Of a stretch of 64,000 bases of DNA, positions 774 through 4,096 are shown one piece after another (within the stretch, counting starts at the first letter, position 1; each line of letters opens with the position of its first letter). The notes below the pieces were generated by a model, which worked only from the letters and a program-made list of their open reading frames with translations, ran no database searches and was not told the origin of the DNA. Where the stretch lies: positions 1 through 64,000 of the IMG/VR virus record IMGVR_UViG_3300028569_002586, one strand, 5' to 3'. The position numbers and the translations under genes are program-made. The DNA is from a virus.

Positions 774-974
774 ATGAACACATACACAAAAGCACTAATT
801 GAAGTCGCCCCTGATCAATGGGTGATGCTTTATGAACAACAATCCAAGATCATAACCATGGAGCCTCAACAAGCTGCAGGGTTTTATAATGCAGTGGATG
901 TCTTAGTTGTTGCAGATACTCATGAAGAGCTGGATCAGTACATTGCAGACCATGCATTGATATACCCAGATTAA
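774..974 (+). CDS. Small hypothetical protein (66 aa)
   Basis: This 66-residue acidic protein starts with MNTYTKALIEVAPDQWVMLYEQQ and has no recognised domain, signal peptide or membrane segment. It starts 4 bases after the LRR gene's stop, which suggests translational coupling and perhaps a role as a small fibre-associated or chaperone-like protein; that is context only. No late-promoter octamer lies directly upstream. It ends 10 bases before the displaced tmRNA 3'-end repeat at 984. The open frame, start position and tight spacing support a real gene. Confidence 0.6.
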   Translation: MNTYTKALIEVAPDQWVMLYEQQSKIITMEPQQAAGFYNAVDVLVVADTHEELDQYIADHALIYPD

Positions 975-983
975 CAGGTACCT

Positions 984-1001
984 GGAGGCGGCGGGGTTCG
1001 A
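984..1001 (+). repeat. Displaced copy of the tmRNA 3' end (direct repeat, left copy)
   Basis: GGAGGCGGCGGGGTTCGA occurs here and, identically, at 1652-1669. Read on the minus strand it is half of the T loop, the 3' side of the T stem and the 3' side of the acceptor stem of the tmRNA. In this copy the next minus-strand base (983) gives A, the usual discriminator base. The rest of the tmRNA does not adjoin this copy, so it looks like the original 3' end cut off from the gene by an insertion. Confidence 0.85.
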
Positions 1002-1024
1002 CAATGCTCAAAACTAATCAGCTC

Positions 1025-1032
1025 CATAAATA
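1025..1032 (+). promoter_or_regulatory. Late-type promoter CATAAATA
   Basis: The octamer CATAAATA lies exactly 5 bases before the ATG of the endonuclease gene at 1038. In T4 the late octamer spans -13 to -6, which would place the transcription start on the A of the start codon and make the transcript leaderless. Confidence 0.6.
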
Positions 1033-1037
1033 TCTAT

Positions 1038-1682
1038 ATGGGTGTGACTTACATAGATTTAACATGCAAAAATTGTAGTGAACTGTTTAAAGTAGAAAAG
1101 TGCTACTATAATCATAGAATTAAAAAAAGTAAACTTGTCATGTTTTGCTCTACAAGATGCAATAATGATTCTAGAATACACAAACGAATAAATAAAAAAT
1201 GTAAGTATTGCAGTAAGCTTTTTACTATTAGAGAAAACCAAGAGAAATATTTTTGCTCTCAAAGCTGCTCAGCAACATTTAATAATTGTAATAAAAAATA
1301 TGGTACAAGAGTATCAAAACTCGAAGTATGGGTAAAAGATAGGCTTACAGAATTATATTCTAAATTGAAAATATTATACAATGAAAAAGAGGCTATTAAT
1401 TCAGAGTTAGATATCTATATCCCAGAGTTAAAACTTGCTTTTGAATTAAACGGTATTTTTCATTATGAGCCAATTCACGGTAAAGATTTGCTTAAAAGAA
1501 TAAAAAACAACGATAATAGAAAATTTCAAGCTTGTTTAGAAAAAAATATTGAACTTTGTATTATAGATACAACATCACAGAAAGTTTTTAAAGAAAAATC
1601 TTCTGAAAAATACTTACAGATAATTAAAAATATTATTAATAAAAAACTTGAGGAGGCGGCGGGGTTCGAACCCGCGTCTTGA
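1038..1682 (+). CDS. Zinc-finger, Vsr-like (EDxHD-type) homing endonuclease
   Basis: The 214-residue protein has two Cys-rich zinc-binding motifs (CKNC...CSTRC at 10-41 and CKYC...CSQSC at 55-77) and then a Vsr/EDxHD-like nuclease core. In that core D125 of ELDIYIPEL, E136 of FELNG and H142 are likely catalytic, followed by a conserved Cys-lie region (CLEKNIELCII). Free-standing phage homing endonucleases have this build and cut DNA at a specific target to spread their own gene. It sits between two copies of the tmRNA 3' end. Its last codons (LEEAAGFEPAS) are the antisense reading of the tmRNA acceptor and T arm, and its stop lies inside the tmRNA. The start follows a late-type octamer at the usual 5-base spacing. 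The gene is AT-rich. The exact nuclease subfamily is less sure. Confidence 0.78.
   Translation: MGVTYIDLTCKNCSELFKVEKCYYNHRIKKSKLVMFCSTRCNNDSRIHKRINKKCKYCSKLFTIRENQEKYFCSQSCSATFNNCNKKYGTRVSKLEVWVKDRLTELYSKLKILYNEKEAINSELDIYIPELKLAFELNGIFHYEPIHGKDLLKRIKNNDNRKFQACLEKNIELCIIDTTSQKVFKEKSSEKYLQIIKNIINKKLEEAAGFEPAS
1652..1669 (+). repeat. tmRNA 3'-end direct repeat, functional (right) copy
   Basis: Identical to 984-1001 over 18 bases. This copy is continuous with the rest of the tmRNA, so it restores the T arm and acceptor stem after the insertion. The base that follows on the minus strand (from 1651) gives U instead of A at the discriminator position. Confidence 0.85.
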
Positions 1683-2063
1683 ACAATTTCACTCACAAGC
1701 ACTACAAGTTTATCTTAGTTGAATTTTCATAAGGATTAAACTAAACGAAAAGCCCTTACTGATAACAATTTTGTACACATGATCTATTAATTGTTATAAC
1801 CCAGATCATGCGAAGACCAGTTACACGCTCCATGTTACAGGTCTCAATCTACCATGGAACGCTTGAACTAGTTAAACTAACTCAAGGGTGGCTTCTGCAT
1901 CTTCAAAGCCAGCTGCTGCAAGAATTGCATCAGCCTCTTCTAGACTCATGGCCATGTCGAATGTTTCATCGGCATTTATTGTTGTTTTGCTATTGTTAAA
2001 CTGGCATGCCCCAGTACTTGCCCTCGCAAACTCCATCATTCAATCGATTCCAATTACGCCCCC
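1652..2063 (-). ncRNA. ssrA: tmRNA (ssrA), one-piece form
   Basis: Read on the minus strand, the gene starts GGGGGCG and ends CGCCTCC. These form a perfect 7-bp acceptor stem with a G3-U70 wobble, the alanyl-tRNA-synthetase identity pair of all tmRNAs. The T arm is GCGGG-TTCGAAC-CCCGC. The length of 412 nt suits a one-piece tmRNA. An internal open frame ends at TAA 1872-1874; a likely tag starts at a GCC codon (ADETFDMAMS...) and ends ...ATLELV, about 33 residues. That is much longer than the usual 8-20 and lacks the usual final LAA. The resume codon is inferred. tmRNA rescues stalled ribosomes and tags the unfinished proteins. No CCA is encoded. A sigma70-like promoter lies upstream (2087-2114). 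Confidence 0.88.
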
Positions 2064-2152: not shown

Positions 2153-3406
2153 GTGAAAATATTCATATCCATTGCTTCCTACCGTGATCCACAACTGCCC
2201 ATAACTTTAAAAAATTGCTTGCAAAATGCCAAGCATCCCGAAAATCTAAGATTTTCTATTTGTTGGCAGAAAGATGAAACAGAAAACTTGGATGAGTTTA
2301 TTAATGACAAGCGGTTTACTATTATTCCTGTGGATTACAGAAAAGGCGAGGGTACATGCTGGGCTAGAAGCTTGATTCAAGAACATTACAAGAAAGAGCA
2401 GTATTACATGCAATTGGACAGTCACCACCGTTTTGAGAAACATTGGGATGAGACCTGCATTGGCATGATCAAAGATTTGCAAAAAGCTGGTTACAAGAAA
2501 CCCTTGCTGACTGCTTATATCCCTAGCTTTGATCCAGACAATGACCCTGCTGCAAGAATACATGTGCCATGGAAAATGAACTTTGATAGGTTTATTCCAG
2601 AAGGTGCAGTATTTTTCTTGCCTGCATCCATAGACAATTTTAAAGAATTGTCTCAGCCTGTGCCTGCAAGGTTTCTCTCAGCTCACTTCATCTTCACTCT
2701 GGGCAAATGGTGCAAAGAAGTGCCTTATGATCCTTATTATTACTTCCATGGTGAGGAGATCAATCTGGCTGTCAGGTCTTATACCTGGGGCTATGACTTG
2801 TTTCACCCTCACAAGGCAGTTGCTTGGCATGAATACACTAGAAAAGGCAGAACCAAGCATTGGGATGACGACAAGGAATGGCACATACGCAACAATGCAT
2901 CACACTTGAGAAACAGAAAACTGTTTGGCATGGATGGTGAAAAGAAGGACGTTGACTTTGGCAAGTATGATTTTGGTACCAAGAGATCATTGGCAGATTA
3001 TGAGAGGTATGCTGGTCTGTCCTTTGCAAAGAGAGCAGTGCAGAGATACACCATTGACAACAACAATCCACCCAATCCTGACAACTTCAAGAGTCAGGCA
3101 GAGTATGAGACCTCATTCTTGAAAATATTCAAGCATTGCATTGATATTGGATTGGCACAAGTGCCTGAAACTGATTATGACTTCTGGTGTGTGGCATTCA
3201 AAGACAAAGATGGCAAAGATGTGTACAGAAAAGATGCTGATAAAGATGAAATTGTGAGAATGAAGAATGATCCAGACAACTACTGCAAAGTGTGGAGAGA
3301 GTTCAATGCAGAAGAGTTGCCTGTGAGCTGGATTGTGTGGCCTCACAGCATAAGCAAAGGCTGGGCAGAGCCCATTACTGGTCAACTCAACAATGTGATA
3401 AGCTAA
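2153..3406 (+). CDS. GlcNAc-transferase-like glycosyltransferase (PF11397 type)
   Basis: The protein begins VKIFISIASYRDPQLP and has QLDSHHRF near residues 87-94, both hallmarks of the Skp1-type UDP-GlcNAc transferase family (GT-A fold); DSH is the likely metal and nucleotide site. It probably moves GlcNAc or a related sugar from a nucleotide donor to a protein or glycan in the cytoplasm. The GTG at 2153 is chosen because it begins the conserved core and follows a late octamer. A longer frame reaches 2006, but that part overlaps the tmRNA and has no family-like sequence. It is the first gene of a run of five; the next ATG (3407) directly follows its stop. Confidence 0.82.
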   Translation: MKIFISIASYRDPQLPITLKNCLQNAKHPENLRFSICWQKDETENLDEFINDKRFTIIPVDYRKGEGTCWARSLIQEHYKKEQYYMQLDSHHRFEKHWDETCIGMIKDLQKAGYKKPLLTAYIPSFDPDNDPAARIHVPWKMNFDRFIPEGAVFFLPASIDNFKELSQPVPARFLSAHFIFTLGKWCKEVPYDPYYYFHGEEINLAVRSYTWGYDLFHPHKAVAWHEYTRKGRTKHWDDDKEWHIRNNASHLRNRKLFGMDGEKKDVDFGKYDFGTKRSLADYERYAGLSFAKRAVQRYTIDNNNPPNPDNFKSQAEYETSFLKIFKHCIDIGLAQVPETDYDFWCVAFKDKDGKDVYRKDADKDEIVRMKNDPDNYCKVWREFNAEELPVSWIVWPHSISKGWAEPITGQLNNVIS

Positions 3407-4096
3407 ATGAATAGCTTTGCAAAAGAAGTTATCAAAAGAGCTTATGAGCTCAAAACAACTTCTGTTGCATGGAGAACCACCAGTTTGACTGGAGATGATC
3501 ATACGTTCAGGCGTTCTAAACCTGCTCCTTTTTTAAAGTTCTTGTATGGCATTAACAAGGACTATCCTTTTAAGAATATTGTTGAAATTGGATCTAACCG
3601 TTATGCTGTGACACAAAAATGTGTAGATTACTTCTTCCAGGAGCATCATGCCACAGAAGCACCTGCTTGCTGTGCAGATGGTCACTCCACATATTTCTTC
3701 AGTCTATTTGGTGGCAATGTACACACAGTGGACATAGATGTCAGTAGAATTGATTCTATCAATCATTGCTACCAGCATTTAAACCAGCAAGTTCCTTGTA
3801 ACCTTCACATACACATACCCAAAGATGGTATTGAGTTTTTAAATGAATTTAATGAGTCTATTGATTTGTTATTCCTTGATGGTTGGGATGTGGGTACACA
3901 TGACTATGCAGAGAATCATTTGCTAGCTTACCGCGCTGCTAAGGATAAGCTATCAGAAAATTGCATAATTGGCATAGATGACACAGATTTCACTGGTGAA
4001 GTGTCAGGTAAAGATAAATTATTAGGTGCAGCTCTTATTGAAGAAGGTTATGTACCATTCATCAAAGGAAGACAAGCACTCTTCATAAAGGTTTAA
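3407..4096 (+). CDS. Class I SAM-dependent methyltransferase-like protein
   Basis: In this 229-residue protein, VEIGS (59-63), HTVDID (106-111), LLFLDGW (154-160) and IGIDDTD (188-194) match the ordered motifs of class I methyltransferases of the small-molecule O-methyltransferase / cephalosporin-hydroxylase-like group. VEIGS would bind S-adenosylmethionine. The acceptor is not visible from sequence; its position inside a glycosyltransferase run suggests a sugar or glycan. The ATG follows the previous stop without a gap and the next gene starts one base after its own stop, so coupled translation is likely. Confidence 0.7.
   Translation: MNSFAKEVIKRAYELKTTSVAWRTTSLTGDDHTFRRSKPAPFLKFLYGINKDYPFKNIVEIGSNRYAVTQKCVDYFFQEHHATEAPACCADGHSTYFFSLFGGNVHTVDIDVSRIDSINHCYQHLNQQVPCNLHIHIPKDGIEFLNEFNESIDLLFLDGWDVGTHDYAENHLLAYRAAKDKLSENCIIGIDDTDFTGEVSGKDKLLGAALIEEGYVPFIKGRQALFIKV

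Follow-up and report, generated by a model that had tools for sequence, protein, structure and literature searches.

We propose that a Vsr-like homing endonuclease gene has invaded the T-loop of a phage transfer-messenger RNA (tmRNA) gene and brought with it a substitute 3′ half for the RNA that it interrupts. The locus lies at positions 984–2063 of the stretch analyzed here (the window), which comprises positions 1 to 64,000, the left part, of the 157,011-bp IMG/VR virus record IMGVR_UViG_3300028569_002586. A substitute T-loop, T-stem and acceptor 3′ half adjoins the 3′ end of the endonuclease gene, so that the RNA is whole without splicing, and the original 3′ half and its flank are stranded on the far side of the gene. 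Relatives of the endonuclease occupy the ends of many kinds of tRNA gene in the same orientation. We assign a probability of roughly 0.86 to the reading that this is a homing cassette which enters tRNA and tmRNA T-loops with a 3′ half of its own.

The native 3′ end of the tmRNA gene

The original prediction, of an exact 18-bp direct repeat of the tmRNA T-loop, T-stem and acceptor 3′ half around a 668-bp endonuclease segment, was confirmed. The repeat, GGAGGCGGCGGGGTTCGA, is found at 984–1001 and at 1652–1669; with up to two mismatches allowed, these are the only two sites for the 18-mer in the whole 157,011-bp record, and a reversed control pattern has none. Rfam detects a single tmRNA in the record, which ARAGORN by itself fails to detect. 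The locus is laid out as follows:

976–983, minus strand: native tmRNA 3′ flank, with A73 at position 983 and then GGTACC; now severed from the gene
984–1001, minus strand: left copy, the native 3′ half of the tmRNA, now displaced (T-loop from T55 on, with the 3′ strands of T-stem and acceptor)
1002–1669, no strand assigned: 668-bp insert consisting of a leader, the endonuclease gene and the second tmRNA 3′ half; its size is the spacing of the repeat copies
1038–1682, plus strand: endonuclease gene (214 aa), convergent to the tmRNA, with its stop codon (1680–1682) inside the tmRNA
1652–1669, minus strand: right copy, the 3′ half now completing the tmRNA, with U73 at position 1651 in place of A73
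1652–2063, minus strand: tmRNA gene (Rfam RF00023 match at 1648–2063, 94.6 bits, E = 1.4e-35)
774–974, plus strand: 66-aa open reading frame (ORF), convergent, ending 9 bp from the left copy

The left copy forms 12/12 pairs with the 5′ acceptor and T-stem strands of the tmRNA. The right copy had been predicted to complete the tmRNA and the left copy to be its severed original end, with a search for uninterrupted relatives carrying the left-copy flank as the proposed check. Using the tmRNA tag reading frame as query, we recovered 27 related phage tmRNAs that are 70–90% identical to the window tmRNA, 14 of the 15 that were scanned being confirmed by Rfam. The endonuclease gene is missing from all 27 in the DNA examined. 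The 3′ end is readable in 26 of them, and in all 26 the sequence ..CTCC (..TTCC once) is followed by the discriminator A73; in 12 the 3′ half continues as AGG. The 3′ ends of L187, L188, L191 and L210 read CCTCCAGGT and that of L206 reads CTCCAGGTAC (AGGTAC), in agreement with the left copy, which on the minus strand is CCTCC-A-GGTACC (CCTCCAGGTACC). The copy that now completes the window tmRNA reads CCTCC-T-CAAG, with U73 running into endonuclease DNA. Because the A73/AGG ends of the relatives match the left copy, whereas the right copy has U73 and endonuclease DNA, the comparison identifies the left copy as the original tmRNA 3′ end, now displaced, and the prediction is borne out. It also supports arrival of the right copy with the endonuclease gene; import of this copy and its duplication in the window phage are both compatible with the sequences. 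Since the 26 relatives are uninterrupted, gain of the insert in the window lineage would be the natural reading for the tmRNA.

Two other routes to relatives were less productive. An exact 22-mer of the tmRNA 3′ end recovered just L090, the tmRNA of a different phage with another flank, and the neighboring glycosyltransferase led to 80 loci, none of which has an adjacent tmRNA. In L184, L187, L188 and L191, a convergent gene ends 12–22 bp from the tmRNA 3′ end; in the window, the insert now separates the 66-aa ORF from the working tmRNA end. The window tmRNA has a long tag frame of ∼33 aa (1872–1976, minus strand), which would read ADETFDMAMSLEEADAILAAAGFEDAEATLELV with GCC, the resume codon of L090. 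This frame does not have the usual LAA-type end, and related frames are present in the 27 phage tmRNAs (L184–L210).

The endonuclease family and its tRNA targets

The endonuclease contains N-terminal zinc-finger motifs (zf-FCS) of the treble-clef type and matches phage HNH/homing-endonuclease families in PHROGs; no GIY-YIG domain was matched in the protein. An AlphaFold2 model built from 55 sequences has a predicted local distance difference test (pLDDT) score of 85.7, and its top Foldseek matches are PvuRts1I, AbaSI and E. coli Vsr (probability 0.89–1.00, E = 0.002–0.06). The model thus predicts a Vsr-like nuclease domain. A Vsr-like nuclease fold is also that of the EDxHD homing endonucleases. 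The candidate active-site residues, which are invariant in the 55 members, are E96, E123, D125, E136, N138, H142, E144 and K162.

Conservation of the protein stops near residue 201, and EEAAGFEPAS, encoded by the last ∼10 codons, is simply the RNA read in antisense. One stretch of DNA had been predicted to encode both the protein C-terminus and the RNA acceptor arm. The overlap is real, with the stop codon inside the tmRNA, but because the C-terminal residues are not conserved it is a passive by-product of the arrangement.

Searches of IMG/VR and of GTDB genomes yielded a family of 72 distinct members, including the window protein. ARAGORN finds a convergent tRNA between −45 and +115 bp of the gene end in 45/72 and a tRNA in the same orientation in none (0/72); in 25 of the 45, the stop codon of the endonuclease gene lies inside the tRNA. 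A convergent T-arm motif is present in 56 of the 72 members, as compared with 0–14 in shifted windows. The invaded targets include 16 named tRNA isotypes as well as tmRNA. The single-case reading from which this work began therefore holds for the window, but was too modest: the strategy spans the family and most kinds of tRNA.

The choice of isotype is almost unlinked to endonuclease phylogeny. A tree of 38 labeled members requires 24 changes of target, as compared with 26.6 after shuffling of the labels (23 of 500 shuffles were as low). The near-identical genes of L063 and L066 lie in tRNA-Glu and tRNA-Ile, respectively, and the acceptor stretch beside the gene, TAGCCCA, is the same in both. 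The invaded tRNAs had been expected to show an excess of badly paired acceptor stems, but none was found (0.79 vs 0.79 non-Watson–Crick pairs per stem, p = 0.52); most invaded tRNAs therefore still fold, although the criteria of ARAGORN itself bias this result.

No full-length member was found in ∼50,700 phage records, and there was no member at all among the PLSDB plasmids. Cyanobacterial contigs, from Tolypothrix, Microcoleus and a metagenome-assembled genome, carry members L087, L088 and L089, and two of these members lie in arrays of 26–29 tRNAs. L026 and L054 are also members without a recognizable neighboring tRNA.

Several short elements accompany the genes. Nine members have a conserved motif, CCACGTGCAGGTA / CTACGTGGAAGTA, in a likely hairpin between the endonuclease gene and the tRNA (L001:5639, L009:3647, L014:3626, L020:3647, L022:3635, L030:3662, L051:3641, L067:3676 and L068:3638), which may serve in RNA processing or belong to the target of the enzyme. 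Many members (e.g. L001, L020 and L068) have a conserved GTATTTATAT stretch, including TATTTATA, shortly upstream of the start codon; this is possibly a promoter element. One family member shares its tRNA cluster with a GOLLD RNA (L003:1122–1581). The tRNA-Leu(UAA) of L022 (3662–3782) and L180 appears to contain an anticodon-loop intron of 38 nt, and introns of ∼199 nt occupy this position in L008 and L082; these are perhaps shrunken and large group I introns, respectively.

Origin of the paired 3′ halves

Many members have an upstream tRNA 3′ half, mostly 20–50 bp before the start codon, whose end falls in the T-loop (TTCGAA), and the bare motif occurs in 35/65 members as compared with 19 expected from a Markov model. 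The displaced halves also pair with their own downstream tRNAs (5′ acceptor and T-stem) better than permuted halves do, with means of 7.5/12 and 6.70 ± 0.16, respectively (none of 20,000 permutations reached the observed value).

The insertion point is visible in a filled/empty pair of sister phages, L022 and L180, whose layout the 668-bp window insert matches. L180 has an uninterrupted tRNA-Leu(UAA) T-loop, ..ATGAGATAGCCGCACCCGGACTCGAA|CCGGGAAGCC... In L022 a 717-bp insert, which holds the endonuclease gene (2992–3651) as well as a second ..GACCGCACCCGGACTCGAA, follows ACTCGAA in the tRNA-Leu T-loop, and an identical tRNA body comes next. The repeat in L022 is 17 bp long, both of its 3′ halves form 7/7 pairs with the 5′ acceptor, and 934 nt to the left of the junction are identical in the two phages. 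Because this 100% identity exceeds that of the surrounding L022/L180 DNA, which is just ∼93–95%, it suggests recent recombination at the site. The left-hand genes of L001 and L078, used as routes to further empty sites, gave no usable one.

An alternative source for the second half is target-site duplication, in which a long staggered break would double 17–20 bp of the recipient's own 3′ half and nothing would be imported. The youngest-looking cases are those expected from such an event, with copies near-identical over 17 (L022), 18 (window) and ∼20 bp (L068). Duplication accounts for the window and L022 equally well, as the halves are nearly identical and U73 is expected under either model. 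It does not account for L001, where the displaced half forms 7/7 pairs with the tRNA 5′ acceptor and the attached half, which is unlike the native one, forms only 2/7; given this difference in pairing, the attached half of L001 originated in another tRNA. L073 was left out of the acceptor comparison on account of an ambiguous register. Nor does duplication account for the stretch shared by L063 and L066, as the two isotypes differ and the acceptor sequence beside the gene does not. In addition, the repeat length varies, following the tRNA 3′ end, and the insert has no transposase-type gene. We therefore consider duplication unlikely as the source of the attached halves.

A group I intron carrying an endonuclease gene in the tmRNA T-loop, with the left copy as 3′ exon, is very improbable. 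Such introns are known at four T-loop positions in tmRNA, and ∼4% of them have an endonuclease gene (PMC11915505). In the window, however, the endonuclease gene runs antisense to the tmRNA, which is complete without splicing. As far as Rfam can tell the intron reading is rejected, since there is no group I match in 900–2150 even at E ≤ 5.

Genomic islands at tRNA and tmRNA 3′ ends are integrase-driven, supply a replacement 3′ end and leave a direct repeat. The window shares the replacement end and the repeat on both sides of the insert, and could on these grounds be what is left of a site-specific integrating element (attL/attR at the tmRNA 3′ end) after loss of its integrase. The original prediction noted this likeness and saw no integrase. 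The lack of an integrase extends to the whole 157-kb record, which has no match to tyrosine (PF00589) or serine, resolvase-type (PF00239) recombinases, so that the likeness holds for the outcome but not for the mechanism. An integrase-driven element is rejected on this basis; a remnant, to which we give almost no weight, is also hard to reconcile with the dozens of relatives in which this gene keeps one orientation across many kinds of tRNA.

A model for insertion into T-loops

No part of a tRNA gene is better conserved than the T-stem/T-loop junction. We propose that the zinc fingers would guide the Vsr/EDxHD-like enzyme to endonuclease-free tRNA and tmRNA genes, that the enzyme would cut at this junction, and that phage homology-directed repair would then copy the gene and its attached 3′ half from the endonuclease-bearing copy. 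All tRNAs share this target, which would explain why related cassettes occur in many isotypes.

Several observations weigh against this model. The motif test finds no T-arm in up to 16/72 members (some of which have an ARAGORN tRNA), and L037, L056, L064, L074 and L081 have no recognizable adjoining tRNA. The displaced half is decayed or gone in many copies. We infer cleavage and homing by the enzyme from the filled/empty pair; a single clean pair was found, and the L180 state could instead have arisen by loss of the insert through recombination between the 17-bp repeats. Finally, the filled tmRNA gene retains an intact T-loop, with 18 bp the same as in the native site, and an enzyme reading the T-loop alone would therefore cut its own carrier. 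Protection of the carrier could be explained if the enzyme also has to recognize sequence in the 3′ flank, beyond the acceptor, or if cutting is blocked in some other way.

The closest precedent for a homing cassette of this design is provided by the mobile ORFs (mORFs) of fungal mitochondria, described in Allomyces atp6 and in Glomus atp6, atp9, cox2 and nad3, in which the 3′ end of a gene holds an endonuclease ORF that provides a new C-terminus and leaves the native one stranded (PMC3630166). As in the window, the endonuclease ORF lies between two copies of the gene 3′ end, with the native copy outermost. The mORFs differ in that their hosts are protein-coding organellar genes and their enzymes are LAGLIDADG or GIY-YIG; the phage family has tRNA and tmRNA hosts, a Vsr-like enzyme, a convergent orientation and a target common to all tRNAs.

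Other systems share parts of the arrangement. The SegB endonucleases of T4 and T6 are free-standing phage homing enzymes that reside in tRNA clusters and cut within tRNA genes (PMC13096335, PMC2988022). T6 SegB provides an independent parallel to the proposed cleavage, having been shown to cut within phage tRNA genes at the motif RAWTSGAAC (PMC13096335), which by our own reading would be the antisense of the T-loop GTTCSAWTY. SegB is, however, a GIY-YIG enzyme located between tRNA genes, and the portions of these sources available to us describe no displaced or replacement tRNA 3′ half. The group I introns of tmRNA invade the same loop, at times with an endonuclease gene, but restore the RNA by self-splicing (PMC11915505), whereas in the window a second 3′ half restores it and no intron is matched. 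The EDxHD enzyme I-Bth0305I is likewise of phage homing type (PMC3943268); the window family differs from it in being free-standing, in its N-terminal zinc fingers and in its address, the T-loop of tRNA and tmRNA genes. Our searches of the open literature turned up no report of a tRNA or tmRNA gene that is interrupted by a lone endonuclease and has its 3′ half in duplicate.

Taken together, the results make it likely that these endonucleases belong to an undescribed and widespread family of homing cassettes in phages, whose dedicated address is the T-loop, universal among tRNA and tmRNA genes. The cassette's own 3′ half would create hybrid tRNAs and allow hopping between isotypes without killing the target. 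The absence of full-length members from the phage records searched may explain why the family is undescribed. How the carrier escapes its own enzyme, although the rebuilt T-loop looks uncut, is a puzzle that the family raises. The occurrence of both Vsr-like and GIY-YIG (SegB) enzymes suggests that this universal DNA address has been adopted by at least two endonuclease families unrelated to each other. A spare 3′ end would be a third way, besides introns and integrases, for a mobile gene to reside inside a tRNA or tmRNA gene without destroying its host. It offers a possible explanation for the fragmentary and hybrid tRNAs in the tRNA clusters of phages, and may allow tRNA 3′ halves to pass from phage to phage and from one isotype to another.
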